A stretch of 64,000 bases of DNA, taken from NCBI RefSeq assembly GCF_907164905.1, contig NZ_CAJRAF010000002.1, forward strand, positions 1-64,000, written 5' to 3'. Position 1 is the stretch's first letter, and every line of letters begins with the position of its first letter. Source of the stretch: Dyadobacter sp. CECT 9275. GTDB taxonomy: Bacteria; Bacteroidota; Bacteroidia; Cytophagales; Spirosomataceae. The position numbers and the translations under genes are program-made. Shown one piece after another: positions 629 through 64,000 of the stretch. The notes under the pieces were generated by a model. It made no database searches and was not told the origin of the DNA. It saw nothing but the letters and a program-made list of their open reading frames with translations.

Positions 629-640
629 AACTACTTAAAA

Positions 641-2644: not shown

Positions 2645-2649
2645 AGTAC

Positions 2650-2865
2650 TTATATTTTGTTTAAAGCCTTTTCGATAATTTTTTCAATCTTTTTGCTGTC
2701 AATATCTTCGTTATTGATTTTAAGATTGTGGAACTCTTTTAGTATATTCTCCTCTAGCCATTCAAAGCCTAATCCTTGTTCATCACAAAGATTTTTGATT
2801 ATTTCCATATCGTCTTTACGAATACCAAAATGAATGAATGTTGTATCTAGTCCTTTGTTTATCAT
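2650..2865 (-). CDS. small protein of DNA-modification operon
   Basis: This 71-aa, charged, predicted mostly helical protein lies between the Res-like helicase (11 bp upstream) and the DndD-like ATPase (5 bp downstream). It has no cysteine pair, membrane segment or recognisable catalytic motif. The sequence reads as two helices around ICDEQGLGFEWLEENI-like text, with a basic, lysine-rich end. Small proteins at this position in methyltransferase/helicase operons are commonly described only as system-associated. A role as a connector or regulator of the ATPase is an inference from position. The tight spacing makes it a real gene rather than a chance ORF. Confidence 0.75.
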   Translation of the reverse strand: MINKGLDTTFIHFGIRKDDMEIIKNLCDEQGLGFEWLEENILKEFHNLKINNEDIDSKKIEKIIEKALNKI

Positions 2866-2876
2866 AATCTATTTAT

Positions 2877-5171: not shown

Positions 5172-5178
5172 TTATGAA

Positions 5179-7062: not shown

Positions 7063-7065
7063 AGT

Positions 7066-8979
7066 TTATTTTACTGTACCGAATTCGATAATGGTTTCAA
7101 TTAATTTTATAAGGTTTGGCGATGTTTCTCCTTTTACCCAAGCTAATTCTAATGTCCGTGCTACAACTAAAGGGTTTTTATGAAGTCCTCCAGCATTTCC
7201 AAATTCTAAACTTGCTTGATCAAAATAAGTTTTCCAATTTGAGATTTCACTTTGTACTTCAATTCCTAAATTTGATTTCCAAGCCCAAAGATTTGGTTTT
7301 ACAACATTGACAGATTGAAATTCATCTTCGGTTGCGTGTCCTTGAATGGTTAATAATTTTTTGTTATCTGGTTTATGTTGATGATGGTATTTTTCTTCCA
7401 CGTCAGTATCACTATCGTACACAATAAAGGCATTAATATTTAGTAGTTTGACTACTGCTGCTGGTTCTATTATGTTACTTTTTTTATCGGCATTGATTAA
7501 GTGCATACCCGAAGCTCTGAATTGCCCTGATAATCCCATTAATTCTAAATAGGTTTTGATGTAAGCAATATCCTCAATACCCTCTACAAAAACTGGAACT
7601 CTACAAAAAAACATTTCATTTATAGACGGACTTAAATATGGAAATAGTTTTGCTACAATTCCTTTATTATTGACTGGTTTTGAACCAATACTTGTTAGAT
7701 ATTCAGATAACTCTTGATAAGTCACTCTTGAACTTAATGTTTCAATTGGATTACCGTTTTCACGAATAATTCTTATTTTTTCAAAACTATTTTTAGGAAT
7801 GAATAGTGGCGAATGTGAGCATAACATTACTTGCGTATTTAGTCCTGCCAAATCCATTAATGTTTCCGCTAAATGCCTTGCTTGTGGTGGATGCTGATAT
7901 AGTTCTGGCTCTTCTATACTTAATATTAATGTTGGCGCATTTTCGTCATCGGTTGTACTTAATTCTTGCAATAAAGCCAACATAAACGACCTTTGTAAAC
8001 CGTGACCAAATCTTGACAACTCTCCTTCAAAACCTCTTTCTCCTAATGCTATGGCTGCCGAAGGTTCTTCAATTTTAATGGCTTTTTCAGCATCTTTTTT
8101 CCATTGAACGGAAGCACTAATGCTTGGATTTGCCCATTGGCTTAATTTATTTTTCAATGAAGAAGAAATATCATCTAAAACATTTTGCTCATCAGCCAAT
8201 AATTGAGAATATTGTACATCAACTACTTTTCTGATTTCTGATATTCTCTCCGTAAAATTAACCTTGGCTCTTACGGTTCGTGATAATAATATCCCTAAAG
8301 CTGAATTTTTATTTTCTTCTCCTTCTTCTGTTACGTCTTTTGAAGCTGAAACAAATACCCATTGAATGTGAGGTAACAAAAGATTTGCACCTCTTGAAAC
8401 ACCATAGAACTGGTCTTCACTAGGTATTAAAACACATTCGTCTGGTCTTGCTGCTTCATATTCTCTTAATGCCGTAATTTTAGCATCTTTAAATCCTGCA
8501 TTTGGTAAATCGGTAAATTTAACTTGTAACTGACTGTAACAAGCATTTAATTCAGGTGCTTTGGCTGAAGCTTTTTCCAGTTCAAAAAATATTCTAAAAT
8601 CATCAATCCCTAATCTGTTACCAAATTGTTTGATTTCAGCTCTTTGTGTTGCAGCATCAAATTCAGCTTTGGCGGTTACAATTAACTTTCCTTGTCGAGC
8701 ATAATTACTTAAATCTTGTTCCGCCTGTTTACTTAATTCAGTAAATGTTACTGTAATTTCAATAGGCTCGGCAGTATTGCAGTGATGGAAATCTTTTTCA
8801 GTTAGCTTACTCAAATCTGTTTTACTGTCTTTGTAGTGTCTGAAAAACACTTGCAATGCTGTAAATACTGTTGATTTCCCCGCGCCATTTGCCCCAACTA
8901 AACAAGTATAATTATCAAAATAAATAGTATCATCCTTGAATGAGCGGAAGTTTTTTATGCGTACAGTTTCTATTTTCAT
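7066..8979 (-). CDS. OLD-family ATP-dependent nuclease (AAA + TOPRIM)
   Basis: This 637-aa protein has an N-terminal ABC-type ATPase with Walker A GANGAGKST at about 29-37, and a signature/Walker B region ending in LSIEEPELYQHPPQARHLA and a switch histidine in CSHSPLF. A C-terminal TOPRIM domain follows, with VEGIEDIAYI near residue 455 and the acidic pair YDSDTD near 510. This is the arrangement of class 1 OLD (overcoming lysogenization defect) nucleases, several of which act in phage defence. It is the first gene of the operon: a ~600-bp gap lies upstream and the mod start codon follows 3 bp after its stop. Association of OLD nucleases with restriction loci is known. A direct partnership with Mod/Res here is inference. 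Confidence 0.85.
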   Translation of the reverse strand: MKIETVRIKNFRSFKDDTIYFDNYTCLVGANGAGKSTVFTALQVFFRHYKDSKTDLSKLTEKDFHHCNTAEPIEITVTFTELSKQAEQDLSNYARQGKLIVTAKAEFDAATQRAEIKQFGNRLGIDDFRIFFELEKASAKAPELNACYSQLQVKFTDLPNAGFKDAKITALREYEAARPDECVLIPSEDQFYGVSRGANLLLPHIQWVFVSASKDVTEEGEENKNSALGILLSRTVRAKVNFTERISEIRKVVDVQYSQLLADEQNVLDDISSSLKNKLSQWANPSISASVQWKKDAEKAIKIEEPSAAIALGERGFEGELSRFGHGLQRSFMLALLQELSTTDDENAPTLILSIEEPELYQHPPQARHLAETLMDLAGLNTQVMLCSHSPLFIPKNSFEKIRIIRENGNPIETLSSRVTYQELSEYLTSIGSKPVNNKGIVAKLFPYLSPSINEMFFCRVPVFVEGIEDIAYIKTYLELMGLSGQFRASGMHLINADKKSNIIEPAAVVKLLNINAFIVYDSDTDVEEKYHHQHKPDNKKLLTIQGHATEDEFQSVNVVKPNLWAWKSNLGIEVQSEISNWKTYFDQASLEFGNAGGLHKNPLVVARTLELAWVKGETSPNLIKLIETIIEFGTVK

Positions 8980-48902: not shown

Positions 48903-51900
48903 TTAAAATGAAACATTTAAACCAACCGTAAATGTCCTGGGAATCGGAATTGCATTAACATCCACACGTTCAGGATCCGGACCGGCAAACTGTCTGGATT
49001 TGATCAGGAACAGATTTTCCGCCATCACGTACACACGCAATCTTTGCAGCCTAATCTTCTCAATAGCTTTTGAATCAATTGCGTAACCCAGCTGCACGTT
49101 TCTTAATTTGAAATAAGATGTGTTCACGTTAAAATAATCGGAAGCACGGGTTTCATTGTTTGCATCAGAAAGAGACAAAGCCGGAATTCTGGAACCTGTG
49201 TTTTGTGGCGTCCAGGCATTAAATACACCAGGCCCTGCGTTTTCACGGCCTCTTACAAAATTGTTGTAAAAGGTGTAAGCATCGAAACCGGATCTGCCGG
49301 CAACGCCTGAGCCAAATATGGAAAGGTCAAAGTTTTTGTAAAATGCCTCGATTTTTACATTGTATTCGAAAGCTGGCAATGTCGTTCCAAAAAATACGCG
49401 GTCAAGGTCGTCGATTTTACCATCTCCGTTGCTGTCTACATAACGGATGCGGCCGGGTCCTGCACCCACCTGCGTCGGAGCGGCGTCAACTTCCTGTTTA
49501 CTCTGGAAAAGTCCGGCGGTTTTGTAACCAAACAGGTCAAACTGCGAGTGACCCAGAATACTCTGTGTTACATTTCCGGGATATGCAGCCCGTACCTCCT
49601 CGGGTAAAACCGTGATTTTGTCACGGAATCTGCTCACACCGGCCATCACATTGTAAGTAAAGTCACCTTTGGGTTTTGCATAATATCCGACCGAAAATTC
49701 GAAACCATTATTGGATTTTTGCGCGCCGTTTACCACTTTCAACTGTCCCTCGCCCACAGCGGATGCGATGGGCGGCGTAATCAATATATCACTGGTTTTC
49801 CGGGTGAAATAATCCAGCGATCCTTGAATGCTTCCGTTAAAAAGGCCGAAATCAACACCAAAATTCGCTTCATCAGTCGTTTCCCATTTCAGGTTCGGAT
49901 TAGCTCCCTGTATCGACACAATGCCCGAGGGGAGATTACCCGTATTTGCACCATTCAGATCGTAGGCCGTGCCGATGTTGTAAAACTGATCGAAGAAACT
50001 GTTGTGCCCGTCGGGAAACTGAGAGCGGCGGGTACCATAGCGCGTATCATACAGGCCAAATCGTGCAAGGTCCCCGATTTCCTGGTTACCCACACGGCCC
50101 ACACCCGCACGCAGTTTGAGGCTGCTCACCGATTTGAAGTTTTGCATAAAGGCTTCCTTGTCTATGCGCCAGCCAACCGATGCCGCCGGGAATATTCCAT
50201 AGGCATTTTCTTTTCCGAAGCGCGAGGAACCATCCCGCCGGATCGTCAGGGCGGCCAGGTACCTGTCTGAGAAACCGTAGTCGACCCTCGCAAATTGTGA
50301 AAGCAATCTGCTTCCCGAGCCCGTTCCGGTAATATTGGAATTTCCGGTTCCTGCATTCAATACAAAGTAATCTTTTGTCTGCTGCGCAAATCCTTCTTTT
50401 CGTGCTGTTTCAAAATTCAGGTCATTTTTGATTGCTTCAACCCCACCCAACAGCTTGAAATGGTGTTGGCCGACTTCGAAATTGTACCGGACCGTGTTAG
50501 ACCACGTTGCGCTTAAATAGCGATTCTGGTCTATGGTCAGGCTGTTGTTAGAGCGACCGAATGAGCCTTCTTCAAAAGACTGCTCTATATTTTTGAAATA
50601 ATAACTTGCATTGTCCATCCCCAGACTTGTGCGCAGAAACAGATTTTTAACTGGTTCAATTTCAGCAAAGACGTTACCAAACAGTGTAACACGGTGCGTA
50701 TTGTCCCATTTATTTATTTCCTGCATGTGCAACGGGTTGTTTCTATCCGAATAGCCCGAGCCGATCCCGCCGCCCCAGGTGCCGTCTTTTGCATAAACCG
50801 GAATGGTGGGAGCCATAGTAACCGCAAGGCCTGTGGTAGCGGCGCCGCCAATGTCTGTGGACGCCAGCCTTTCATTGGATGAGGCCATCTGCATATTGGC
50901 GCCAATTTTAAGCTTTCCGTCGAAAGCGCTCGTGAGTGCATTGATACGCCCGCTCAGCTTGTCGTAATTGGTGTATCTGAGCATGCCCGTATTTTTGTAA
51001 TAACCCAGGTTAATCTGCAGCGAAGAGGTTTTATTACCTCCCGAAATCGTGAGTTCGTTGTTGGTGACGATCCCGGTTTTATACAGTTCCTTTTGCCAGT
51101 TGGTATTGCCGGCGGGCATGTTGGCATTTCCACCAACAAGAGGCTGTACCGAAACACTGTTCAGCACAGGATTAGTAAAGTTTTTATTCCAGTCAAACTT
51201 GTATAGCGCACCGTAGCCATCCTCCGGATTTACGCCATCGTTTACGGAAGCCTGCCAAAGCGCACGACCGCGGTCAACAGCATTGAGCATCTTGAATCGT
51301 GCATACTTTTCAGATTGCGCCGACAGGCTCGTGTTGAAGTCAATGGTGATCTTTCCATTGGCATTGGAACCGTTTTTGGTAGTTACGATAATGACACCAT
51401 TGGAAGCTCTTGAACCATAAATCGATGAGGCCGAAGCGTCTTTCAGCACCTGCACGGATTCAATGGAATTGGGGTTCAATCCCTGGAAAACCTCTGGGCG
51501 TTTGGTCGGAACACCGTCAATGATATACAACGGATCTGTGTTGCCCAGTGTATTTGCTCCCCGGATCAGGATGCGCGAATTGGCACCATTCGGAGAGCCT
51601 GTTTTTTCAATGTACAGCCCCGGAACACGGCCCTGAAGTGCCTGCATAGGGTTACCGGAACTGATATTTTTAAGCGGTGCCATATCCACAATCGCGATCG
51701 CCCCGGTTAAATCTTCCTTTTTCGAGCTGGTATAACCTACAACAACTACTTCATTCAAACTTTTCTGGTCGTATTCCAGCGTGACATCCACAATGGATTG
51801 ATTCCCGACAGGCATTTCTTTGGCGACCATACCCACATAGGAAAACACCAGTGTAGCAGATGAACTTACCGAAATCGCATATTTGCCCGTGGCATCACTC

Positions 51901-52061
51901 ACTGCTCCGTTGGTTGTTCCCTTTTCCAGGATACTCACGCCCGGGAGGATTTCTCCGTCCGTCGCTTTTACAGTTCCGGAAACCGAAACTTTGCTTTGCG
52001 CCCATACCAGCTGTATACTGGTCAGGATGGCAAACGCCATCAATAGTAATCTTTTGTTCAT
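48903..52061 (-). CDS. SusC/RagA TonB-dependent transporter of the fructan locus
   Basis: This is 1,052 aa from ATG 52061 (the frame stays open inside the fructokinase gene upstream). It has a signal peptide (MAFAILTSIQLVWAQ), a carboxypeptidase-D-like domain (VSGTVKATDGEILPGVSI), the TonB-box-like EVVVVGYTSSKKEDLTG, a plug with SIYGSRASNGVIIVTTK and a beta barrel ending GLNVSF. There is no STN domain, in line with control by the hybrid sensor rather than FecR. It starts 4 bp after the fructokinase stop. It transports fructo-oligosaccharides across the outer membrane (inferred from the locus). Confidence 0.95.
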   Translation of the reverse strand: MNKRLLLMAFAILTSIQLVWAQSKVSVSGTVKATDGEILPGVSILEKGTTNGAVSDATGKYAISVSSSATLVFSYVGMVAKEMPVGNQSIVDVTLEYDQKSLNEVVVVGYTSSKKEDLTGAIAIVDMAPLKNISSGNPMQALQGRVPGLYIEKTGSPNGANSRILIRGANTLGNTDPLYIIDGVPTKRPEVFQGLNPNSIESVQVLKDASASSIYGSRASNGVIIVTTKNGSNANGKITIDFNTSLSAQSEKYARFKMLNAVDRGRALWQASVNDGVNPEDGYGALYKFDWNKNFTNPVLNSVSVQPLVGGNANMPAGNTNWQKELYKTGIVTNNELTISGGNKTSSLQINLGYYKNTGMLRYTNYDKLSGRINALTSAFDGKLKIGANMQMASSNERLASTDIGGAATTGLAVTMAPTIPVYAKDGTWGGGIGSGYSDRNNPLHMQEINKWDNTHRVTLFGNVFAEIEPVKNLFLRTSLGMDNASYYFKNIEQSFEEGSFGRSNNSLTIDQNRYLSATWSNTVRYNFEVGQHHFKLLGGVEAIKNDLNFETARKEGFAQQTKDYFVLNAGTGNSNITGTGSGSRLLSQFARVDYGFSDRYLAALTIRRDGSSRFGKENAYGIFPAASVGWRIDKEAFMQNFKSVSSLKLRAGVGRVGNQEIGDLARFGLYDTRYGTRRSQFPDGHNSFFDQFYNIGTAYDLNGANTGNLPSGIVSIQGANPNLKWETTDEANFGVDFGLFNGSIQGSLDYFTRKTSDILITPPIASAVGEGQLKVVNGAQKSNNGFEFSVGYYAKPKGDFTYNVMAGVSRFRDKITVLPEEVRAAYPGNVTQSILGHSQFDLFGYKTAGLFQSKQEVDAAPTQVGAGPGRIRYVDSNGDGKIDDLDRVFFGTTLPAFEYNVKIEAFYKNFDLSIFGSGVAGRSGFDAYTFYNNFVRGRENAGPGVFNAWTPQNTGSRIPALSLSDANNETRASDYFNVNTSYFKLRNVQLGYAIDSKAIEKIRLQRLRVYVMAENLFLIKSRQFAGPDPERVDVNAIPIPRTFTVGLNVSF

Positions 52062-52065
52062 GAAA

Positions 52066-52953
52066 TTATTGGTTAACGGTAAGAAAATGATCGAGTTCTG
52101 ATTCGGAAATGTTGGGCGTTGCGCCCCGGTGAGAGGCGACCAGTGCACCAACTGCACATGCTTTTTTGAGTGCGGAAGCGATGGTGGAGCCCAAAATATA
52201 TTCTTTCAGAAACATCGCCAGGAATGAGTCTCCGCTCCCGATGGTGTCCTGCACCTCAACCTCATATCCTGCTTGTTTATGGAAACCGTCATGGGAAAGA
52301 ACCATAGCTCCCTCGGCGCCGAGGGTTACACAAACCAGTTGAAGATTGAAGCGCTCATATAAAAACTTCATTTGGGTTTCCAGTTCGGGTTGTATGCCAA
52401 ACCAGCTGCAAACCGTATGGAGCTCATGCTCATTCACTTTGACAACATCAGCCTGAAGCATCAAATGCTCGGTGGCTGCCCTTTCTAAATGCGGAGGACG
52501 TATGTTCACGTCGAACACTTTTAGTTTGGCGTCTTTCAGTAATTCAAAAAGGGTCTCCCGGGATTGCTGACTGCGAACTGACAGTGTGCCATATACGAAC
52601 ACATCGGAATCCATGACAAGCCGCTTGTTTTCAGGGGTTGCCTGGATGTAGTCCCAGGCAACGGGCTGCACGATTTTATAAGTAACTTCGGTTTTGTCGG
52701 TCAGGTTAACTTTCACAATTCCGGTCAGATGCGTGATTCCCGTTTGAATGAAATTCGTATCAAGACCCTTTGTGTGAAGATATTCCATCAACTCAACGCC
52801 CAGGTCGTCGTCACCGACACGACTGATGAAGGCGGGATTCATGCCAAAGTTTTTGAGGTGAATGGCTACATTCATCGGTGCTCCCCCGGGTTGTTTGCCC
52901 GAAGGCAGCATATCCCAAAGCATCTCTCCGAAAACAGTTATTTTAGGTTTCAT
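52066..52953 (-). CDS. PfkB-family fructokinase
   Basis: This is 295 aa from ATG 52953. It has the ribokinase/PfkB fold with ITVFGEMLWDML, the first signature GGAPMNVAIHLKNFG, and the second signature with catalytic Asp in DTIGSGDSFLA. The GGAP-N-A opening is typical of fructokinases. It makes fructose-6-phosphate from fructose released by the GH32 enzyme. It sits between the sugar porter and SusC, 4 bp before the latter, within the minus-strand operon. Confidence 0.92.
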   Translation of the reverse strand: MKPKITVFGEMLWDMLPSGKQPGGAPMNVAIHLKNFGMNPAFISRVGDDDLGVELMEYLHTKGLDTNFIQTGITHLTGIVKVNLTDKTEVTYKIVQPVAWDYIQATPENKRLVMDSDVFVYGTLSVRSQQSRETLFELLKDAKLKVFDVNIRPPHLERAATEHLMLQADVVKVNEHELHTVCSWFGIQPELETQMKFLYERFNLQLVCVTLGAEGAMVLSHDGFHKQAGYEVEVQDTIGSGDSFLAMFLKEYILGSTIASALKKACAVGALVASHRGATPNISESELDHFLTVNQ

Positions 52954-53077
52954 ATATATTGAGATAAATAGCGAAAGTGACTTTATCGTGGTTTTTTTAG
53001 AATGCACTATTACTGAATTCATTTACAATACATTCCCGCTTCGGCATAACGGTAGACAACTCGCCAACAGCCCATCA

Positions 53078-54400
53078 TTAATGGAGCACCATTATTTTCT
53101 CGGGCCGTTCCAGTGACGTTCCCTTGGTTTCGGGCATGACGCGCCACACGAAAATGAGTTGCAAAATCATCATCACGGTAAAAAACGAGAAGGTGATTCC
53201 GCCACCGAGGTATTCTGAAATGATAGGGAATGAGAAGGCGATGATCGCAGCCATGAACCAATGTGTGAAACTCCCCAGCGCCTGGCCGTTGGCACGCACT
53301 TCGTTTGGGAAAATCTCGGAGATAAAAACCCATATTACTGCGCCCTGGGAGAATGCAAAAAATGCGATGTAAACGAAAAGAAAAACGGGTACGCCTGTGA
53401 AATCCTGTACAAAAAATGCCCTGGCAACCAATCCGAGTGTGACGATGACACCTACGGAGCCAATGGCCATCAGCGTACGTCGGCCAAAACGGTCGATGAA
53501 ATTGATGGCCAGTAGTGTGAAGGCGAAATTGACAAAACCGATGCCGGCAGAAGACAAAAACGCAGCTTTTGCCCCCAGACCAGTCATTTCAAAAATGCGT
53601 GGACTATAATAAATGATGGCGTTGATACCCGAAACCTGGTTGAAGACCGCAAACAGAACCGCCAGCGTGACGGGTGTTTTATAGTTGGCGGAAAACAAAC
53701 GGGCAGATGGCTTTCCTTTGGCTTCATCGTTGGCGTTCTGGATGGCGAGCAACGTTTCTTCACTGGTATCAGCGTCGATGACGTTGAGAATTTCCTTGGC
53801 CTGCGTTACATCGGCCTTTTTCATAACCAGCCAGCGCGGGCTTTCGGGCACATAAAGGATGGCCAGCAGGAAAATCAGAGACGGGACCGCCTGGACTCCC
53901 AGCATCCAGCGCCAGGCATTATCGCCCATATCCTGCATGAAGTAATTGGAAAAATAGGCGATCAGGATCCCGAAGACTACATTGAACTGAAACAACCCGA
54001 CCATTTTTCCTCTTGACCCGGCTGGCGAAATTTCGGAGATGTACATCGGCGCGGCCACGGAAGAAGCGCCCACACCAAGGCCACCAATGAAACGAAAAAA
54101 TAGGAATACATACCAGTCCGTTGCGAGCGCAGAGCCAAGTGAAGACAGCAGATATAATACCGCAATCCAGAACAAGGTCGTTTTTCTTCCCAGTTTGTCT
54201 GCCGGAATCCCGCCCAGCATTGCACCGATTACCGTACCGATCAGTGCGATAGAGACTGTGAAGCCGTGTTCAACCGCCGACAGATCCCATACGAGTTGAA
54301 TGGCTTTTTCCGCGCCCGAGATAACGGCCGTATCGAATCCAAAGAGAAATCCGCCAAGCGCGACAGCGACAGACCATACCAGTACCTTTCTGTTTTTCAT
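53078..54400 (-). CDS. MFS sugar porter (fructose importer)
   Basis: This is 440 aa from ATG 54400, with twelve membrane segments. Sugar-porter signatures are FGFDTAVISGAE in helix 1, the D-K-L-GR loop as ADKLGRKTTLF, ISPAGSRGKM, PESPRWLVMKK and the second-half FGRRTL. It imports a monosaccharide, in this locus almost certainly fructose, across the inner membrane. It is the first gene of the fructan operon, with a promoter box 22 bp upstream and repeated TTGATACA sites further up. Confidence 0.93.
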   Translation of the reverse strand: MKNRKVLVWSVAVALGGFLFGFDTAVISGAEKAIQLVWDLSAVEHGFTVSIALIGTVIGAMLGGIPADKLGRKTTLFWIAVLYLLSSLGSALATDWYVFLFFRFIGGLGVGASSVAAPMYISEISPAGSRGKMVGLFQFNVVFGILIAYFSNYFMQDMGDNAWRWMLGVQAVPSLIFLLAILYVPESPRWLVMKKADVTQAKEILNVIDADTSEETLLAIQNANDEAKGKPSARLFSANYKTPVTLAVLFAVFNQVSGINAIIYYSPRIFEMTGLGAKAAFLSSAGIGFVNFAFTLLAINFIDRFGRRTLMAIGSVGVIVTLGLVARAFFVQDFTGVPVFLFVYIAFFAFSQGAVIWVFISEIFPNEVRANGQALGSFTHWFMAAIIAFSFPIISEYLGGGITFSFFTVMMILQLIFVWRVMPETKGTSLERPEKIMVLH

Positions 54401-54421
54401 TTGTAGTTCTGATTTTTTTGT

Positions 54422-54429
54422 CAAAACTA
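54422..54429 (-). promoter_or_regulatory. putative promoter (-7 box) of the fructan operon
   Basis: On the minus strand this reads TAGTTTTG, matching TAnnTTTG, 22 bp before the MFS start codon. Confidence 0.55.
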
Positions 54430-54478
54430 CATCCACCAGGCACTCGGAATAACTAAATAATATCTCAAAAAAGTTAAA

Positions 54479-54579
54479 CTTTGATACAGTGGTATTTTAG
54501 AAGTATATATTTATGATAATCAGTGAATTAGCCAAACATTTAACTTTTGATACATCCTGTGTCTTTCAATTTTGATACA
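54479..54579 (-). promoter_or_regulatory. three TTGATACA repeats, probable HTCS binding sites
   Basis: TTGATACA occurs at 54481-54488, 54547-54554 and 54572-54579 in the same direction, each within a longer match of the form TTAACTTTTGATACA. On the transcribed (minus) strand this reads TGTATCAAA. They lie 50-150 bp upstream of the operon's -7 box, between the fructan operon and the sensor gene. This is the expected place for the AraC-type output domain of the hybrid sensor to bind. Confidence 0.6.
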
Positions 54580-54668
54580 ACGTATTTAAAATCCATACCA
54601 AAATAGTTGCCGTTGTTCCCTGTGCAATTGAATAATAATGTGATTGGTTTAAATAAAATCGTGGGTAC

Positions 54669-57407
54669 TTATGATTTTTTATATTCCATCGGCGTTTGGT
54701 TATATTTCCCCTTGAAGGCTGTGGAAAAATAGGTAGGAGAGGAAAAACCGACTTTGTAGGCAATATCCGCAACCGTCAGGTCATCCCGTCGTAAGAGGAA
54801 TTTGGCTTTATTGAGCCGAACCTGCTGGACATATTCATTCACACTCATACCCAGCAGGGCTTTGACTTTCCTGTATAATTGCACCCGCGACATCCCCAGA
54901 TCTTTGGCGATGTCTTCTACACCCAGTTCGGCGTTGTCGTAATGTTCTTCAATGTATGCCGTAAACAACGTGATAAATTTCTTGTCCAGTTTGTTCGGAT
55001 TTGCTGCTGACGAGTTTTCAATGGGGAGTTCACTGGTATAATGTTCCCGCAGTATGGCGCGGTTTCTGAGCAGCGTTTTGATCATTTCCTGGACATACTG
55101 CAGGTTGAATGGCTTGGTGATATAGGCGTCTACACCTGCCCGGATGCCCTCAATTTGCTGCTCTGTGGTGGTTCTGGCAGTAAGCAAAACGACAGGAATA
55201 TGCGAAGTTCTGAAATCCGTTTTGAGTATGGAGGTAACACTCAATCCATCCTTTTTGGGTAACATCACGTCGCATACGATCAGGTCCGGAATATGTTCAA
55301 ATGCCATCCGCAATCCATCTTCACCGTCGTTGGCTACAAAGGTCTGGTAATGGGTCCGGAGCTTTTGTTTCAGTAGCTGTACAAGGTCTGAATTATCTTC
55401 AATGATCAGCACAGACAGTTCGCCATTTGAAACGCTCTGTGCTTCTGTGATGTCCGGAAGTGTATTTTCTATGTTAAGCTCGAGCTTTTGATCCATCGAA
55501 AAATCTTCGACTTGGTCATGACGGAGCTGTTCTTCCAGAAAATGACTCTTGCCCAGCGGTAACGCGATGGTGAATGCAGTTTCCTTGTTGGGCTGGCTCC
55601 GAACCGAAATGGTTCCGTTGTGTAGCGCAATCAACTCTTTGGAAAGTGCCAGGCCTAACCCCGTTCCGAGTGTTTTATAGCTGTTATCTCCCTGATAGAA
55701 TACCTCGAAAACATGTGCAAGTTCGGATTCCGTCATGCCGATGCCGTTGTCTTCCACCACGATCTGTACCTGATCCTGCGAATTTCTTTTTATATAAAGG
55801 TAAACCCGTCCCTTGTCCGGAGTGAATTTAAATGCATTTGAAAGCAAATTGAAAATGACTTTATCCAGCATGTTGACATCAAACCAGACGGTCATTTCCG
55901 TCTCGGAAGTGATGAGCTGAAAATCAATTTTGTGTTTTGATGCAATCCTTTCAAAAGCCACCATAATCTCTTTCACAAACGCGACCAGGTCGTGTTCCCC
56001 CGCTCTTACCTGCATACGGTGACTGCCAAGTTTTCTGAAGTCCATCAGCTGGCTGACGAGCCTCAAAAGCCTTAGTGTATTTTTTCTGATCAGGGACAAT
56101 TCCTGTTTGACCAAAGGGTCCCTGATTTTGTCACTGGCCAGAACGTCCTCAACCGGCGCCAGGATCAGTGTGAGCGGGGTACGGAACTCATGAGAAATAT
56201 TGGTGAAAAATTTAAGCTTTGCTTCATTTTCAATATCGGCACGCTGGGCCAGCTCTTCAATCTGGTTTTTTTGGTCCGATATTTCGTGGTTCTGTACCTC
56301 AAGACGCTTGTTGATCTTTCTGTTTTCACGCAGGGAATAAAATGAGATGGCCCCAAAAATCAGGGCCAGGGCAAGGGTCACGGAAACAGTCCAGATCACG
56401 ATGCTTTGATTTTCAGTGATCGCGCGTTGTTCCTCGATTTTCTCCTGACGGCGTTCGATATCCTGCTGTTGCGCTACCAGTTTGTCGCTCTGTAACTTCA
56501 TGATCCGCACATTGGTAGCGTCAATCATGGTGATCTGAAGTTTGTTTTCTCTTCTAAAAGGTTGTTTCTGAAGAATGGCAATGGCGGTACGAATCGCTTC
56601 TTCTCCGCCGGTTGGGTAAAGAATGGTGGCGTTCAGCACATCTTTGTCTACCAGATCTATACCGCCATCGGGTCCGGTAAGCCCGTCGACCCCAATCAAC
56701 CTGATCTTTTTTTCGAGTCCCAGATTTTTGCAAACGCCAAAGGCTTTTAAAGCGCGGCGGTCATTCTGGCAAAATATGACGTCAATATCTGTATGTGCTT
56801 TCAATAGTTTGGTGAGAGGGGCCTCGAATGAGTACTTGTCCCAATCGCCGTCGAGTTTTGCGATGAGCTCGATGCCGGGAAAGTGGCCGATGGTTTCTGA
56901 AAATCCACGGTGGCGATCCATATCAGCAGAGGAGCCAGGCTTTTCACTGATTTCAATCACCTTTCCGCTGCCCTTCAGGAGCGTGTTGGTATAGGCCCCC
57001 GCTATCTGTCCCACTTCCACGTTATCCGCTCCGACGTAGGCAGTGTACTGATCGGAACTGGTCCTGCGATCCAAGATAATCACAGGGATACCATTCTGAT
57101 ATGCTTTTTCAACCACTGGCGTGATCGGTTTTGCCTCGTTTGGCGATACGATCAGAAGATCGATATTTTGGTTGATGAGTTCTTCGATTTGTTTAATCTG
57201 CGTGCCGCTTTGCCCGCGGGCGTCCTTCATAATGAAATTGATCTCGGGATTGAAAGACAATTCCCGGTACATACTTTCCTGCATCGTTTTTCGCCAGTTA
57301 TCCGCTCCGGTACACTGCGAGAAACCGATGGTGTACTGTTTAGGCTGCTTTTTAGAGCAGGCTGTCAGAATGAGACAGAATAGACCAATTAGTTTTAAGT
57401 ATTTCAA
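54669..57407 (-). CDS. hybrid two-component sensor/regulator (fructose-type HTCS)
   Basis: This 912-aa single-chain signalling protein has an N-terminal signal with a possible lipobox (ILTACSKK), a periplasmic sugar-binding (PBP1/LacI-type) domain at about 25-300 (YTIGFSQCTGADNW, VIILDRRTSSDQYTAYVGADN), and a membrane helix at ~336-358. The kinase core has His406 in NISHEFRTPLTL and ATPase boxes DNGIGM and GTGLGLALS. A receiver domain with Asp713 in CDVMLPKKDG and a C-terminal AraC HTH (~800-912) complete it. A PBP-type sensor on an HTCS is the plan of BT1754, which senses fructose. The locus around it fits. It probably activates the divergentless operon 53078-45587 through the TTGATACA sites. 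Confidence 0.93.
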   Translation of the reverse strand: MKYLKLIGLFCLILTACSKKQPKQYTIGFSQCTGADNWRKTMQESMYRELSFNPEINFIMKDARGQSGTQIKQIEELINQNIDLLIVSPNEAKPITPVVEKAYQNGIPVIILDRRTSSDQYTAYVGADNVEVGQIAGAYTNTLLKGSGKVIEISEKPGSSADMDRHRGFSETIGHFPGIELIAKLDGDWDKYSFEAPLTKLLKAHTDIDVIFCQNDRRALKAFGVCKNLGLEKKIRLIGVDGLTGPDGGIDLVDKDVLNATILYPTGGEEAIRTAIAILQKQPFRRENKLQITMIDATNVRIMKLQSDKLVAQQQDIERRQEKIEEQRAITENQSIVIWTVSVTLALALIFGAISFYSLRENRKINKRLEVQNHEISDQKNQIEELAQRADIENEAKLKFFTNISHEFRTPLTLILAPVEDVLASDKIRDPLVKQELSLIRKNTLRLLRLVSQLMDFRKLGSHRMQVRAGEHDLVAFVKEIMVAFERIASKHKIDFQLITSETEMTVWFDVNMLDKVIFNLLSNAFKFTPDKGRVYLYIKRNSQDQVQIVVEDNGIGMTESELAHVFEVFYQGDNSYKTLGTGLGLALSKELIALHNGTISVRSQPNKETAFTIALPLGKSHFLEEQLRHDQVEDFSMDQKLELNIENTLPDITEAQSVSNGELSVLIIEDNSDLVQLLKQKLRTHYQTFVANDGEDGLRMAFEHIPDLIVCDVMLPKKDGLSVTSILKTDFRTSHIPVVLLTARTTTEQQIEGIRAGVDAYITKPFNLQYVQEMIKTLLRNRAILREHYTSELPIENSSAANPNKLDKKFITLFTAYIEEHYDNAELGVEDIAKDLGMSRVQLYRKVKALLGMSVNEYVQQVRLNKAKFLLRRDDLTVADIAYKVGFSSPTYFSTAFKGKYNQTPMEYKKS

Positions 57408-57641
57408 TTTTTATTTGTATTTGAGCAAGTGTTTAGCTTATTCAAATGTATTATAAATGAAAGCTCAAACAAATCGTTGCAGGAAAAATGATCAGTGGAT
57501 ACACGGAACGACCTACCACCCATATGTTGCACGACAGCATGCCGTTGACCGTTTGAGTATGTGCTGACGCCGCCGGGTATGTGAAAGTCCGTTTTTTCAG
57601 AAACGACCATACAGTCTCAATCACCTCACCGGAACCCTTTG
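57408..57641 (-). other. gap upstream of the HTCS gene
   Basis: 234 bp without a supported gene. It must carry the HTCS promoter; no clear minus-strand TAnnTTTG box was found and no TTGATACA site occurs here. Confidence 0.35.
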
Positions 57642-57986
57642 CTAGGCAACTTTGATAACAAACGCCGTCAATTCGGCCATGCGGCCATCCTCAAACCGCC
57701 AAACGTCGCAATACGCATAATGGGCCAGCATTCCGTCCTGATCCTTCAAATCGATCGTGCCGATGGCGGTGACATAATCGCCTTCTGCCACCAGCGTATC
57801 TACCTGAAACCGGGGCGGTTCCAGGTAGGTTTCGACCATGTACTGCCGGACAGCCTCTTTTCCCGCGAGCGTTTGTTCCCCGACAAAATGCCATACAACG
57901 TTATCGGTACAATACACCAGAAACCCTTCGTTGTCCCCCGCCATCACCGCCGCATTGGCAGCCTGCAATACTTCCTTGTTTCCCAT
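57642..57986 (-). CDS. NTF2/SnoaL-like small protein
   Basis: This 114-aa alpha+beta-barrel protein of the NTF2-like superfamily starts with VLQAANAAVMAGDNEGFLVYCTDNVVWHFVG and ends with the curved sheet YVTAIGTIDLKDQDGMLAHYAYCDVWRFEDGRMAEL. This is the usual SnoaL-like pattern, with the conserved W-x-F near the pocket and DGR[MI] near the end. Members are small-molecule-binding or isomerase-like proteins. No specific substrate can be inferred. It stands alone on the minus strand. Confidence 0.85.
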   Translation of the reverse strand: MGNKEVLQAANAAVMAGDNEGFLVYCTDNVVWHFVGEQTLAGKEAVRQYMVETYLEPPRFQVDTLVAEGDYVTAIGTIDLKDQDGMLAHYAYCDVWRFEDGRMAELTAFVIKVA

Positions 57987-58313
57987 CTTTGTAATAGCTG
58001 GTTAAATGTTCATGGCTCCAAAAACATCGAGCCAGCAAGATAAGCAGGTGGCGCTGGATTACGATGGTTTGACCGTTTAATCAGTTTTTGGGTGGGGGTG
58101 GTTAGGTTGGGGAGTTGCGGGGCTTTTGATGGAAAAACTAGTAGCTTATTGAGGTCGGATTTGGACGAGTCGATATTGAAGGAGCTGATGGATCGCTTGG
58201 AGAAGTCGCTCGGCAACCTATTATTGACGAATAATAAATACGTTCTTACAACAATTACTAATGATACCTGGCCGTCTTGATATCTACTCGATTATAACCG
58301 AAAATCCGTCGAA
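57987..58313. other. gap upstream of the metallophosphoesterase-HSP90 gene
   Basis: 327 bp; short open frames on both strands lack any recognisable feature. Composition shifts from GC-richer to AT-rich within this stretch, which marks the left boundary of the AT-rich gene that follows. No TAnnTTTG box was found. Confidence 0.35.
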
Positions 58314-59081
58314 ATGAGAATTGTCCAACTTTCCGATATTCATCTCTCCTCAAACAATATTTACGACCTAGAAAATTACTATTTGGAGGCACTGGTAAAG
58401 GATTTATTGGCATTTCATCAACACAATTCAGTTGATCTAGTAATTTTTACAGGTGACTTGGTGGATAAAGGTGGCAATTCTCTTAAAGAATCACCATATG
58501 AGACTTTCAAAAAAGTAATCATTACACCTATCGTTTCAGCACTAAAAATCACTGATTCACAAGTGCTGATGATTCCCGGAAATCACGACATTGATCGCAA
58601 TCAAATCGAGCTCAAAAGCGAATTCTATCTGGCTAATACTTTGACCAGAGATGGTGCAAATAAGTTAGTGAATGAAATGAAGATGTCATTCACAGAGGAT
58701 AACAATCGAATCAAAAGATTCAAAGAATTCGAAAAAGAATTTCATAAAAATACACCAAATTATGTTTACAGCAATTCAGAATCTTCTGTTATCATTAACA
58801 CCATAGAAGGCGACATCGGAATTTCACTAGTGAACGACTCGTGGAGATGTTCTAGCGATCTACAACGCCAAAATCATTTTATCGGAAGCAATCAGTTATT
58901 CAATACTGCTAAGATATTTTCCGAAGCAAAGACTCAACTTAACGTTGCTGTATTTCATCATCCTCTCGAAGCCATTAATGAGGATGAAAAGGAAGAGATT
59001 GAAAATATACTAAAATCAAAAAACTTCTCATTTTCACTTTTTGGACATAGCCAAAGAGACTGTAAAATGAACTCTGTCTAA
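58314..59081 (+). pseudogene. metallophosphoesterase-HSP90-like fusion gene, 5' part (IS-interrupted)
   Basis: This is the 5' portion of an AT-rich gene. The native sequence runs to about 59055; the last nine codons to the TAA at 59081 come from the insertion sequence. It has the calcineurin-like phosphoesterase motifs: QLSDIHLS (Asp/His), FTGDLVDKGG, IPGNHDIDR, the histidine in VFHHPLE and, at the break, FGHS. Removing the IS and one target duplicate joins 59047 to 60501 in frame and restores the final metal-binding motif as FGHSHKYKYQ. The intact gene would be 2,643 bp (880 aa). As it stands, this fragment lacks the last metal-ligand His and is probably inactive. Confidence 0.88.
59048..59055 (+). 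repeat. target site duplicate, left copy
   Basis: TAGCCAAA, against TAGCCATA at 60501-60508 on the other side of the IS: 7 of 8 bases match, with TAGCCA exact. The length suits IS256-family insertions. The mismatch suggests mutation since insertion. Confidence 0.6.
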
Positions 59082-60500
59082 AAGTTTTAACTTTAAGACA
59101 GAACATGGAAAAGACAGAATTCGAACAGATGCGCGACAAGGCGCTGGAACAGTTGATGAAAGGACAATCGTTGACTGGTAAAGACGGGGTCTTCGCTCCG
59201 CTACTTCAACAATTTTTGGAAAGTGCTCTTGAGTCAGAAATGAATGCTCATCTCAGTGAGCAGGAGCGGGAATCCGGTAACAAACGCAATGGCAAAGGCA
59301 GCAAACGCTTAAAGACTATGTCTGGTGAAATTACTCTGACTACGCCAGAAGACCGAAAGAGCAGCTTTTCCCCACAAATTGTCAAGAAACGCGAAACGGT
59401 CCTGGCTGATAACCTCGCTCCTCAAATTATTGGATTATACAGTAAGGGCATGAGTTTTCGCGATATATCTGATCACATTCAACAGATGTATGACGTTGAA
59501 ATATCTCATGCAACACTCTCCGAAATCACAGAAAGAGTAATTCCGCAAGTCAAGGAATGGCAAAGTAGGCCACTAGAAAGCCTTTACACCATTGTTTGGT
59601 TGGATGCTATGCATTATAAGGTGCGAGATGGAGGCCGGGTCGTGACACGGGCTGTCTACAATGTGCTTGGTGTGAATCGACATGGCTATAAAGACTTGAT
59701 TGGCATGTATGTCTCAGAAAGCGAGGGCGCTAACTTCTGGCTTTCAGTACTTACAGATCTGAAATCCAGGGGAGTGAAAGATATTTTGATAGCTTGTACC
59801 GATAATCTTACTGGCTTTTCCGAGGCAATATTGGCGTCATTCCCGGAATCGGAAATTCAAAGTTGCATCATTCATCAGATCAGAAATTCGCTTAAATACG
59901 TCGCTTCTAAGGATCAAAAAACTTTCATGCAAGACCTAAAAACGGTCTACCAGGCGCCCACGAAAGATAAAGCAGAGTTAGAGCTGGATAAACTCAACGA
60001 TAAATGGGGCCCCAAATATCCGGTTGTGATCAAATCTTGGCAGAATAATTGGCATAAACTGTCAACCTATTTTGCTTATGATGAGCAAATTAGAAGACTT
60101 ATTTACACGACCAATGCCGTAGAAGGCTTTCATAGGCAAGTCAGAAAAATTACAAAAACAAAAGGTGCCTTCCCTAATGATATGGCCCTGTTAAAATTGA
60201 TCTATCTGGCGGTTGAGAATATAAGTCGGAAGTGGACCTCCCCTTTACAAAATTGGGCACTTACCGCCCAACAATTGCATATCAAATTTGGCGACAGAAT
60301 GCGGATGGACCTTTAATTTTGCTTCCCAATATGAAACGCAAAAATAGCCTGCTATTGAATTTATCAAGGGTATATAAACGGCTTCGTGCCTCCGCCGCCC
60401 TTGACAAACCCAATAACAAGCAAAAAAGCATTTGAAATCGAAAAGAAAAATTAAATTTGAACCAACCTAGATAGCCAGACAGAGTTCAGATTACACTCCC
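59056..60500 (+). mobile_element. IS256-family insertion sequence
   Basis: This 1,445-bp element has imperfect terminal inverted repeats of 24 bp (59056-59079 and 60477-60500). Twenty positions match, with the inner 12 (TGAACTCTGTCT) identical. One transposase gene fills it (59105-60316). It interrupts a metallophosphoesterase-HSP90 gene, whose two halves join in frame when the element is removed. The 3' part (60317-60476) is non-coding. Confidence 0.9.
59105..60316 (+). CDS. IS256-family transposase
   Basis: This 403-aa DDE transposase of the IS256/mutator type has catalytic residues Asp167 (WLDAMHYK), Asp233 (CTDNLTGF) and Glu340 (TNAVEGFHRQVRK). The family signature HQIRNSLKYV lies between the second and third. 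The N-terminal part with EMNAHLSEQERE and NGKGSKRLKT is the usual DNA-binding segment. The gene is full length with no frameshift, so the element may still be mobile. It starts 49 bp inside the left end. Confidence 0.96.
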   Translation: MEKTEFEQMRDKALEQLMKGQSLTGKDGVFAPLLQQFLESALESEMNAHLSEQERESGNKRNGKGSKRLKTMSGEITLTTPEDRKSSFSPQIVKKRETVLADNLAPQIIGLYSKGMSFRDISDHIQQMYDVEISHATLSEITERVIPQVKEWQSRPLESLYTIVWLDAMHYKVRDGGRVVTRAVYNVLGVNRHGYKDLIGMYVSESEGANFWLSVLTDLKSRGVKDILIACTDNLTGFSEAILASFPESEIQSCIIHQIRNSLKYVASKDQKTFMQDLKTVYQAPTKDKAELELDKLNDKWGPKYPVVIKSWQNNWHKLSTYFAYDEQIRRLIYTTNAVEGFHRQVRKITKTKGAFPNDMALLKLIYLAVENISRKWTSPLQNWALTAQQLHIKFGDRMRMDL

Positions 60501-62409
60501 TAGCCATAAGTACAAGTATCAAAACGTATTAAGTGCAATTGGTGGATATGTATCGATTAACGGAAGAGCTGCCTTAGATAATCCTTCTCAGGAGTTGGCA
60601 AACTATCAACCTGGCTACAATATTCTTGACATTAACCTCAATAATGGCACATTTGACCTCTACGCGCGTAAATTTGTGCGATCGAATGGGTTCAGCTTCC
60701 AGGCGGATGTTGATTCATTACCAGATGGTAAAACCTCCGGTAACATTCCTAAGACTGAGTACTATGAGTTGGCAAAGAATTCAACAAATAAAGATAGCGA
60801 TCTTCCAAACGGATACACGGCAGATGTAGATAGAATTGTAACTCTATTGATAGGAAAATCTATTTATACAAATCCATATATTTTTGTTCGAGAGTTAATT
60901 CAAAATTCCGTTGATGCCTGCAACAGATTGAGAGAGATTCTTTTTAACGTTAACCCAAAGATTATCGTAAACATTAATTCTCTTGAAAACTTTATCGAAT
61001 TCACCGATCATGGGGATGGCATGTCAAAATATATATTAAAAAATCATTTTTCTGTTATCGGCAAGAGTATTAGTCAGGAATTTAATGATCACACTGGACA
61101 TTTCAATCTAATCTCTCAATTTGGAATTGGTTTTATAAGTACTTTCATAGTTGCTCAAAGAGTTTGTGTTACCACAAAAAGACTTGATGATATCCTTATT
61201 AATTTTGAAGTTACAAATGTGTTTAAGGGATTTGACTATTCAAGTAAAATCCACACCCATTTGGAAAGTGAGTCCGGCACTTCCATTAGAGTGTATTTAA
61301 AACAAGGAAACTATGCACAGAACTTACTATCTCACATATTAACATATTGTAGACATATAGACAATATGGAGGTCAACTTGGATGGGGCGAAAATTGAACT
61401 CTCTAACACCTGGAATACAGAAGGGTGCTTTCGTGTCATCGAAGACATTAATGATAGATTTGTAGCGAAAATTGGTATTGGACTGGATATAAGATCAATC
61501 TACACCTCAAATAGCGGATTCATAATTAACGCTCACGGAACCAATGCATTCCCTTTTAGATTTCCTGGGATAATTGGTGGTGAAGTTAACTTTAAGCCTA
61601 AGGCCATCGACTTTGATGTATCCAGGAACAACATAATCGACAACGAAAAATCTCTTGCATTTCGAAAGCATATCTCTTCGTCGGCCCGTAAACTATTTAG
61701 AGACGTAATAGAAAGCGGGAATATTGAACTGACTGAAAGGATAATGCAATATATTAGTTATTACATTGAATACTTTGAGGCTAATAATGCAAAGATGACA
61801 GCGTCGTACAACGACTTCTATTCCAAAAGAGAGTTGTTCGATATGTTTATTAAAAATTCCAGGTTTGTTTTTGGCCACCGATCGCAGAACCTGAACGATA
61901 TATTTCTAGAGCTTAGTCGACTCGGCTTGAACAGAATTTATACAATAACTGGAAGGAAATTTGAAGAACACGAAGAGATAGTCATCGAGTATTTAAGAGA
62001 TAATGGAAATTTCGTCGTTGACCCACCAAACTTCAATATTCAATTTCAGGACGGAGGTCACAATGTCAATATGCTAAATGTATTTCATGCAATTGGTGGC
62101 GAATATGGGTTTTCGATTACCGATGTATTGAGCATAAAGGAACATATTTTACATGATATGAAAAAAGATAAGGCACAATATGACACCAAGCTCGTTCAGC
62201 ATTTGTCGGATATTGAAACGAAACATAGTATTTCGATAGACATTGCTGATTTTAAAAATAGTCTAAAACCATCGATTCGTTATGACACTCAATTTCTACT
62301 AAATGAAAGTCATGAATCATTCAAATCGCTATTGACTCACCTAGATACTTTTTTACCGGAAACAATAGATGTGTATTTGCTAGGCCTTTTAGGGTTGCAA
62401 CTATCCTAG
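60501..62409 (+). pseudogene. metallophosphoesterase-HSP90-like fusion gene, 3' part
   Basis: This is the 3' portion of the broken gene, in frame with 58314-59047 once the IS is removed (residues 245-880 of the reconstructed protein). After a ~100-residue linker comes a GHKL/HSP90-type ATPase fold. The N-box is ELIQNSVDACNRL (Glu376, Asn380, Asp383), the ADP-binding loop is TDHGDGM (around 414-419), and the lid glycines are QFGIGFISTFIVAQRV (451-466). These are the HtpG-type signatures. The remaining ~400 residues resemble nothing I recognise. In its present state translation could begin only at an internal codon such as TTG 60595 (604 aa, ATPase intact). Known HSP90s are not fused to phosphoesterases. 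Confidence 0.85.
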
Positions 62410-62805
62410 ATTAAACACACCACAGTTTGTCGGTACTTAGATTAGGTCATGATTCCGAAACGACCAAAAGACCTTTCCTCGTCCCAATCAAACAATCCAA
62501 AACCCAAATATTCAGCAACTCAACAACCTTTACCGAATTTTCAGTGGCATAATCGTCAGGACAATTCAACCCAATCTCCGGGGGGAAATTGATGTCTGTC
62601 AGAACAATCCTTGGTGCATTGCAATTAAAACCAACCAAAAAAAACCGTTACCCTGGCATTTGCTCTTGGTCCCCTGCTGCTGGAATAGGCGATTCCGGCG
62701 ATGATACTCCCCCCCCCAAAAAAAAACGGATACCTTCTACCCGGATTTGGATAATCGGCGCTCTGTGCGGCCTGCCTAAGTTTGTATCACTAAATTTTTC
62801 ATTTT
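62410..62805 (+). other. gap with a C9A9 tract
   Basis: 396 bp without a supported gene. A run of nine C (62709-62717) directly followed by nine A (62718-62726) lies about 50 bp upstream of the -7 box of the alcohol dehydrogenase gene. Small frames on both strands have no coding features. Confidence 0.5.
62777..62784 (+). promoter_or_regulatory. putative promoter (TAnnTTTG) of the alcohol dehydrogenase gene
   Basis: TAAGTTTG matches the -7 consensus and ends 21 bp before the ATG at 62806. No good -33 element. Confidence 0.5.
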
Positions 62806-63846
62806 ATGATACAAGCAAAAGGATATGCGGCGCAGACGGCGGAGAGTCCGTTGGCGCCCTGGCAGTTTGAAAGACGCGACCTCGGCGCGCATGATGTACA
62901 GATCGAGATTTTGTACTGCGGGGTTTGTCATACCGACATTCACCTGATCCGTAACGAATGGTTCCCAGGTGTTTTCCCCATGGTGCCCGGCCATGAGATC
63001 GTTGGCCGCATCAGCGCCGTGGGTGCGCATGCGCGGAAGTTTGGCATCGGTGACCTGGGCGGGGTCGGTGTGATGGTCGACTCCTGCCGCGAATGTGCGG
63101 ACTGCAAAAACGGACAGGAGCAATTCTGCTCCGTCGCTCCGGTACAAACCTACAACAACCTGGGCCACGACGGGCTGCCGGTGTACGGTGGCTATTCCAA
63201 CACCATCGTGGTGCACGAGGATTTTGTGCACCACATCTCCGAGAAGCTCGACCTGGCTGCCGTAGCGCCCCTGCTCTGCGCGGGCATCACGACCTACTCG
63301 CCGCTGAAACGCTGGAATGTCGGCAAGGGGCACAAGCTGGCGGTTGTCGGTCTGGGCGGACTGGGGCACATGGGGGTGAAATTCGGAAAGGCGCTGGGCG
63401 CGGAGGTGACCGTGCTGAGTACTTCTCCGGGCAAACAGGAAGCCGCCAGGCAGCTTGGCGCATCGCATTTTATCATTTCCAAAGACGAAGCGCAGATGCA
63501 GGCTGCCTTCAAAACCTTCGATTTTGTGCTGGACACCGTCTCGGGCAACAGCGATGTGAACCCGTATCTGTCCATCCTGAAAACCAACGGCATTTATGTC
63601 AACGTCGGCATGCCTGCCAAACCCTGGGAAGTAAGCTCATTCACACTCGCGACGGGCAACAAGGTCATCGCAGGTTCCGGCGCGGGCGGATTGCCTGAAA
63701 CACAGCAGATGCTCGACTTCTGCGCCGAACACGGCATCGTCTCCGACATCGAACTGATCGACATCAGGGACATCCACACCGCTTACGACCGCATGCAAAA
63801 AGGGGACGTCAGGTACCGTTTTGTCATTGACATGAAAACCCTGTAA
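62806..63846 (+). CDS. zinc-dependent alcohol dehydrogenase (YahK/CAD-like)
   Basis: This 346-aa medium-chain dehydrogenase/reductase has the catalytic zinc site in YCGVCHTDIH and PGHEIVG, four structural-zinc cysteines in DSCRECADCKNGQEQFC, and the Rossmann motif VGLGGLGHMG. It matches the cinnamyl-alcohol-dehydrogenase-like, NADP-preferring aldehyde reductases (YahK type) in length and motif spacing. Such enzymes reduce a broad range of aldehydes. The gene lies 9 bp before the AraC gene at 63856, which probably belongs to the same transcript. GC-rich compared with the preceding gene. Confidence 0.92.
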   Translation: MIQAKGYAAQTAESPLAPWQFERRDLGAHDVQIEILYCGVCHTDIHLIRNEWFPGVFPMVPGHEIVGRISAVGAHARKFGIGDLGGVGVMVDSCRECADCKNGQEQFCSVAPVQTYNNLGHDGLPVYGGYSNTIVVHEDFVHHISEKLDLAAVAPLLCAGITTYSPLKRWNVGKGHKLAVVGLGGLGHMGVKFGKALGAEVTVLSTSPGKQEAARQLGASHFIISKDEAQMQAAFKTFDFVLDTVSGNSDVNPYLSILKTNGIYVNVGMPAKPWEVSSFTLATGNKVIAGSGAGGLPETQQMLDFCAEHGIVSDIELIDIRDIHTAYDRMQKGDVRYRFVIDMKTL

Positions 63847-63855
63847 CTTCAACAA

Positions 63856-64000
63856 GTGAACAAGCCATACCTCATCAATTCCATATCCGAGCAGCACCGC
63901 CTGCTCGGATTGCCCAAGCCGAAGCACCCGCTTGTCAGCGTGTTCAGGCATGAAGATGCCACCTACGCCAATCTGACTGAATTGCAGCATTTTACATTAA
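63856..64000 (+). CDS. AraC-family regulator (partial, N-terminus only)
   Basis: This is a GTG-started frame (63856) cut by the window edge after 48 codons. Its start, SEQHRLLGLPKPKHPLVSVF, closely parallels the AraC protein at 32942 (SEAHRAFGLPQPAHPLISS), so it is the beginning of a paralogous AraC regulator. It starts 9 bp after the alcohol dehydrogenase stop, repeating the reductase-then-AraC arrangement seen at 32054-33862. The DNA-binding domain lies outside the window. Confidence 0.75.
   Translation, partial: MNKPYLINSISEQHRLLGLPKPKHPLVSVFRHEDATYANLTELQHFTL

Follow-up and report, generated by a model that had tools for sequence, protein, structure and literature searches.

A metallophosphoesterase-HSP90 fusion gene broken by an IS256-type element in Dyadobacter: a candidate single-protein phage-defence switch

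Nicastro, Burroughs, Iyer and Aravind (NAR, 2023) are reported to have proposed that modules related to HSP90 and HSP70 are counterparts of STAND and GTPase domains, and reportedly such modules are coupled there to the nucleotide-targeting effectors Calcineurin-CE, HD-CE and PRTase-CE. Here we analyse a gene of Dyadobacter sp. CECT 9275 with a layout of the same kind: a calcineurin-like metallophosphoesterase (MPE) followed by an HSP90-type ATPase, which stands in one frame in six genomes and is broken by an IS256-type element in the 64,000-nucleotide stretch that we call the window (the start of contig G000:C2, positions 1-64000, of a genome of 7.2 Mb in 4 contigs). The fusion would be a new member of this predicted class of HSP90-coupled effectors. 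No profile named Calcineurin-CE appeared in the Pfam results for the window pieces.

Three described systems come close to this layout. The proteins behind PDC-S60 and DS8_antiphage (NF053861) are, like the fusion, single large proteins with the MPE first, and the MPE of the left window piece matches both profiles; they differ in their C-terminal two thirds, which are a STAND/AAA module there and HSP90 in the fusion. Along the 1027 positions of PDC-S60, residues 1-305 of the fusion homologue L062 match positions 1-294 only, as against positions 1-1021 for L073 and L081; for DS8_antiphage, with a threshold of 790 bits, the left piece scores 76.9 and L062 is not listed at 1e-4. In the Shedu protein VcSduA control of a nuclease by a GHKL ATPase has been proposed, and both are needed for phage protection in the laboratory; a GHKL ATPase and a hydrolytic effector share one protein, as in the fusion, whereas in VcSduA the GHKL domain is N-terminal and annotated as paraMORC3-like, not HSP90-like, and a PD-(D/E)xK (DUF4263) nuclease is C-terminal (PMC12137116). 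Pfam gave no DUF4263 match for either window piece, nor for L062, L063 and L064. HtpG, finally, is like the fusion in its N-terminal ATPase domain and predicted overall fold, and differs in having no effector in front of it. The preliminary description of this DNA, made from the sequence alone, knew of no described system with this layout, which was too strong because of the reported prediction and of the phage-tested VcSduA. Among the literature titles found none is on an MPE-HSP90 fusion, and we make no claim that the fusion is absent from print.

One gene in two pieces

The MPE piece and the HSP90-like piece belong to one gene, which an IS256-type element has split in two (Table 1). The left open reading frame (58314-59081) matches Metallophos in Pfam (E 6.6e-19), extends past 59055 into the inserted sequence and stops at 59081. 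The right frame (60502-62406) carries an HSP90-type ATPase; it matches HATPase_c_3 (4.5e-7, Pfam) and also the HtpG model of NCBIfam over residues 74-265 (2.7e-26), far under the cut-off of that model. When the insertion sequence (IS) is removed, a single open frame, 880 residues long, runs through the empty site and encodes FGHSH across the junction. This bears out the preliminary description, which had the flanks join into one 880-residue protein, an N-terminal calcineurin-like phosphoesterase followed by an HtpG-type GHKL ATPase, and had the last metal-binding motif restored across the junction (GHSH in the reconstructed frame). The MPE superfamily motifs D-x-H, GD, GNHD, H and GHxH are all present, split in the window across the two pieces: eight of the nine MPE motif positions are on the left piece, and the missing last His sits on the right one. 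The gene is also AT-rich against its neighbours, as had been noted, its two pieces having 34.6 and 35.6% GC, compared with 47.2% in the left flank (48903-58043), 57.0% in the right flank (62806-64000) and 42.1% in the IS.

Uninterrupted homologues, which the preliminary description had proposed to look for, exist in six relatives, with 880-898 residues from a conserved start. In a search of the family (222 genomes) the whole fusion was found as one open frame in three of the 221 others (G484, G506 and G588, with 887, 903 and 900 residues), and in a search of the order (390 genomes) in four of the 389 others, three being those of the family search and the fourth G805. A scan of named genomes (at least 63 loci) had fusions in Pedobacter jeongneungensis, Salegentibacter agarivorans and Fibrella forsythiae among the matches listed; the Fibrella gene and that of G506 were counted once. 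Within the genus (48 genomes of the family search) only the window genome and G484 have the fusion gene, the phylum sample gave a full-fusion match in none of 394 other genomes, and a first scan of genome contigs with a single piece returned 25 stretches, none of which was confirmed.

The two window pieces meet on these intact frames. In a relative from the same genus the left piece aligns with residues 7-252 and the right piece with residues 252-886 of one frame (E 2.4e-90 and 1.5e-197), and in two further genomes the right piece likewise resumes at the end residue of the left piece or at the next one. The junction motif of five aligned homologues is GHSH (in three), GHIH or GHNH. All six intact homologues share nineteen invariant motif positions: nine MPE, nine GHKL and one additional Arg. 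These positions are the same in the five that were tabulated, and all are present in the two window pieces combined.

It could be argued that two unrelated adjacent genes come to resemble one gene once the IS is removed, and in two Actinomycetota records (L094 and L097) an MPE gene is indeed followed by a separate HSP90-like gene. Six relatives, however, have a single open frame over the junction, on which the window pieces meet at the same residue, and this makes the two-gene explanation practically untenable for the window; for the MPE-HSP90 family, the six junction-spanning relatives refute it. We therefore treat the pieces as one gene, which is most likely dead in the window strain because the insertion separates the start codon from the last metal-binding His and from all of the HSP90 part.

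The boundaries of the inserted element (59055/59056 and 60500) were fixed by comparison with its other copies in the genome; six of the 11 matches in its own genome, the window copy included, are near full length, and one other is 100% identical. Its two ends, GAGACTGT... and ...ACACTCCC, form imperfect inverted repeats. The interruption is an IS256-type element, as first described. The target copies (59048-59055 and 60501-60508) agree at seven of eight bases. They differ by one base even though the genome holds a second, identical copy of the IS, and this difference is absent from the preliminary description.

Table 1. Features of the interrupted gene, in window coordinates
Feature	Position	Strand	Basis or remark
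5' gene piece: calcineurin-like MPE domain through FGHS	58314..59055	+	Pfam, homologue alignment
Left target copy TAGCCAAA	59048..59055	.	
IS256-type (Mutator) insertion element	59056..60500	+	other copies in the genome
Transposase open reading frame, 403 residues	59105..60316	+	Transposase_mut, E 3.1e-104
Right target copy TAGCCATA	60501..60508	.	frame reads S-H, as the last metal-binding motif in most homologues
Last metal-binding His, end of MPE domain and linker region	60502..60795	+	
HSP90 N-terminal GHKL ATPase domain (ELIQNSVDA, DHGDGM, QFGIGF)	60796..61389	+	profiles, structure model
Predicted HSP90 middle domain, with invariant Arg (DFDxSR)	61390..62133	+	structure models; profile comparison sees its start only
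Predicted HSP90 C-terminal domain and stop codon	62134..62409	+	structure models; invisible to profile comparison

The HSP90 part

The N-terminal ATPase domain of the fusion is 33% identical to that of HtpG across 192 aligned columns, and it is an HSP90 N-terminal GHKL domain with the HSP90 motifs. Sequence profiles detect this domain and the start of the middle domain only. In the preliminary description the following ~400 C-terminal residues were of unknown type; we dropped the idea of an unknown domain and read these residues as the predicted middle and C-terminal domains of HSP90, since the window piece and one intact homologue, when modelled, align to full-length Hsp90 through both domains, where profiles do not match. 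This fold assignment covers the families listed, and fold families outside the list may also fit. The Arg of the DxSR motif is invariant in six homologues and may be the counterpart of the middle-domain Arg of HtpG.

The fusion is separate from HtpG. Against the HtpG model NF003555, whose cut-off is 371 bits, the window piece scores 92.2 and the homologue L062 scores 106.2, and the HtpG rows sit apart in the HSP90 tree (94/95). This tree holds 42 of 43 rows, L046 having been dropped, and L014, an HD-CE protein without a HATPase match, was left out. Both this support and that of the fusion clade in the MPE tree (90/80, below) fall under the star threshold.

Exchange of modules on both sides

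In relatives of the MPE from the order search and the scan of named genomes, other modules follow the MPE. Pfam matches in seven scanned proteins show fusion to nSTAND4, often with AAA_14 (L073, L076, L081, L084, L085, L088 and L138); the nSTAND4 match is above the Pfam cut-off in four of the seven, and below it in L073, L076 and L088. Other fusion partners are nSTAND6 (L087), NB-ARC with TPR (L089) and TPR (L137, in a frame cut by the end of the locus), and L082, which the Pfam scan did not include, matches PDC-S60 along its length in PADLOC. In L074, L075, L077, L078, L079 and L080 a stand-alone MPE gene of 360-373 residues has a large gene of ~1200 residues directly 3' of it, in six loci of six, and this second gene resembles the NACHT-type gene of L074. 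Among these two-gene loci the Pfam scan for NACHT (cut-off 26.7 bits) took in L078 and L079, which score 25.2, just below, and 31.0, above. The linker region that follows the MPE of the fusion (within 60502..60795) is common to the NACHT-paired MPEs. The MPE frame overlaps the NACHT-type frame by 11 bases in L074 and by 4 in L079.

In the MPE tree (30 of 31 rows; L090, with no match to the MPE model, was dropped, and L096 covers 39% of the columns), the window family forms one clade (90/80). This clade is nested in a set of 14 rows (100/98) together with the six NACHT-paired MPEs and one STAND fusion, and pairing with HSP90 requires three changes over the tree. A second, separate MPE-HSP90 layout of 1174-1293 residues, in which ~340 extra residues separate the two domains, was seen in L090, L092, L096 and L098 (Bacillota and Chitinophaga); in the two Actinomycetota records mentioned above the MPE frame overlaps the HSP90-like frame that follows, the pair being two genes.

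The HSP90 side was followed in 19 scanned HSP90-matching proteins of non-HtpG layout, taken from the phylum sample and the family search, where further long HSP90-matching frames were left out. An N-terminal HD-CE is found in 18 of them, 17 of these with a HATPase match, and the remaining one carries TIR. This TIR-HSP90 fusion is encoded in G506 (L065:8931-10394, on G506:C7; 488 residues; TIR_2 1.3e-17, HATPase_c_3 4.5e-14), and in the HSP90 tree its HSP90 groups as sister to the window family (98/89). Its gene belongs to a Thoeris cluster: three matches to ThsB start 2.6-5.1 kb downstream of it (E 4.3e-57, 1e-75 and 1.1e-132), and a gene that looks MazG-like by eye lies between.

Module exchange is thus seen both ways, of MPE with STAND/NACHT and of HSP90 with TIR and HD-CE. 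Earlier work from the group of Nicastro et al. counts the calcineurin-like phosphoesterase among N-terminal effector domains and describes other NTPases taking the place of STAND domains (PMC8195603; for general background, see PMC7159879). Because both modules exchange partners, HSP90 most likely takes over from a STAND ATPase here as the switch of an effector that would destroy nucleotides or nucleic acid. If this is true, HSP90 and STAND NTPases would be interchangeable bacterial immune switches, with effectors swapping switches and switches swapping effectors.

A proposed defence switch and its surroundings

On balance we favour the explanation that this one gene, broken by the IS256-type insertion, is for an MPE-HSP90 protein that by itself works as a phage-defence switch. 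Before infection, the HSP90 dimer would keep the phosphoesterase domains at its two N-termini inactive. The trigger would be a protein, made or damaged by the phage, that binds the client surface of the HSP90 middle and C-terminal domains, and once bound it would drive ATP-dependent clamp closing of the HSP90 N-domains. With the effector fused before the N-domain, clamp closing may either draw the two phosphoesterase domains close to each other or expose them, and the activated phosphoesterases would then destroy nucleotides (or nucleic acid), stopping the infected cell. TIR effectors act on NAD and HD-CE is described as acting on nucleotides; because these partner effectors act on nucleotides, we favour nucleotides over nucleic acid as the MPE substrate. 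A direct DNA or RNA nuclease of the SbcD/YydB kind, gated by HSP90, is the rival here, and we regard it as rather unlikely.

More tentative is the sensing step in its general form, that is, the bacterial HSP90 ATP clamp as an infection sensor, with phage or misfolded proteins as clients and the chaperone cycle as the threshold that fires an attached phosphoesterase, TIR or HD effector; we see it as a possibility worth pursuing more than as an expectation. Chaperones can take part in phage sensing, as one report indicates, in which a bacterial NLR-related protein has DnaJ as a host factor for its sensing; the same source cites that eukaryotic NLR receptors need HSP90 as a helper (PMC12169576). 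If the idea holds, HSP90 would be the receptor switch itself, compared with its helper role for eukaryotic NLRs, and the clamp sensor would amount to an NLR-like immune receptor with a chaperone at its core in place of the STAND ATPase. The value of the MPE-HSP90 family lies in the swap evidence and in its compactness (one gene, ~890 residues), and the idea is therefore directly testable with an intact environmental homologue.

A role in phage defence appears likely, and module swapping is a stronger ground for it than the genes beside the fusions. The MPE matches the N-terminal part of PDC-S60 in PADLOC and, in NCBIfam, parts of the anti-phage models DS8 and DS9_1. In G588 a gene for a 1049-residue PHP/AAA protein ends ~280 bases upstream of the intact fusion; of the 894 positions of Ppl, this protein matches the final 120 (E 2.1e-24). 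By eye, recombinase-like genes lie near the fusions of G506 and Salegentibacter, and ParA- and TerD-like genes near that of Pedobacter.

Several results weigh against a clamp-driven defence switch. Among the ten immediate neighbours of the other five intact fusions, seven have no PADLOC match at 1e-5 and the remaining three match general domains only (ThiF/E1, SNc, HTH). DS8 is not among the families listed for an intact homologue at 1e-4. No whole-fusion match was seen in phage, plasmid or viral-contig searches: the phage and plasmid collections held no record covering 80% of the right piece, and of 38 stretches of viral contigs that matched a pattern four loci were confirmed, all with the HSP90 part only. 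Profile-profile comparison of the C-terminal part with eight HtpG sequences gave nothing (probability 0.2 and 0.1%), in a second look at the window-piece model only four of 50 rows extend well past the N-terminal domain, and the structural matches behind the clamp cycle have TM-scores near 0.5. The clamp cycle therefore rests on predicted structure, the HSP90 middle and C-terminal domains being invisible to profiles. The suggestion in the preliminary description of an acquired defence or conflict gene stands as far as patchy presence, AT-richness and module partners go, and falters on the few defence genes beside the six intact fusions; scoring of the neighbourhoods, which it also proposed, gave the Ppl match in G588 on one side and the seven unmatched neighbours on the other.

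The same neighbourhoods bear on the possibility of a housekeeping or stress enzyme, in which an HSP90 carries its own protein phosphatase, as eukaryotic PP5 with Hsp90, and has no anti-phage role. In G484 and G805, two of the six genomes with an intact gene, it lies by eye amid housekeeping or metabolic-looking genes, and the Hsp90-PP5 structures 8gae and 8gft are among the fold matches, though via the Hsp90 chain. Such an enzyme would, however, be at odds with the patchy presence of the gene (three of 221 other genomes in the family and four of 389 in the order, three of them shared), with the pairing of its MPE kin with STAND/NACHT NTPases and of its HSP90 kin with TIR and HD-CE, and with the best PADLOC and NCBIfam matches of the MPE, which are defence-labelled profiles, no protein phosphatase model being among the matches listed. 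We consider this explanation improbable and retain the phage-defence switch as the preferred one.

Two further observations concern the DNA around the gene. No gene-free clean site was found in the genus, and in the six relatives checked the DNA similarity upstream of the dehydrogenase gene stops near 62,715-62,728; a 105-base intergenic stretch (window 62447-62551) is 77% identical to L152:2282-2385 of another genome in the genus, but the two stretches face opposite ways with respect to the dehydrogenase gene next to them. At the other end of the window, a stretch of low GC (about 29-34%) on the reverse strand (2-8979) resembles a defence island by eye, with a HerA/FtsK-like end, a DndD-like SMC ATPase (641-2644), Res (2877-5171) and Mod (5179-6840) of a type III restriction system, and an OLD-family ATPase/TOPRIM protein (7066-8979).

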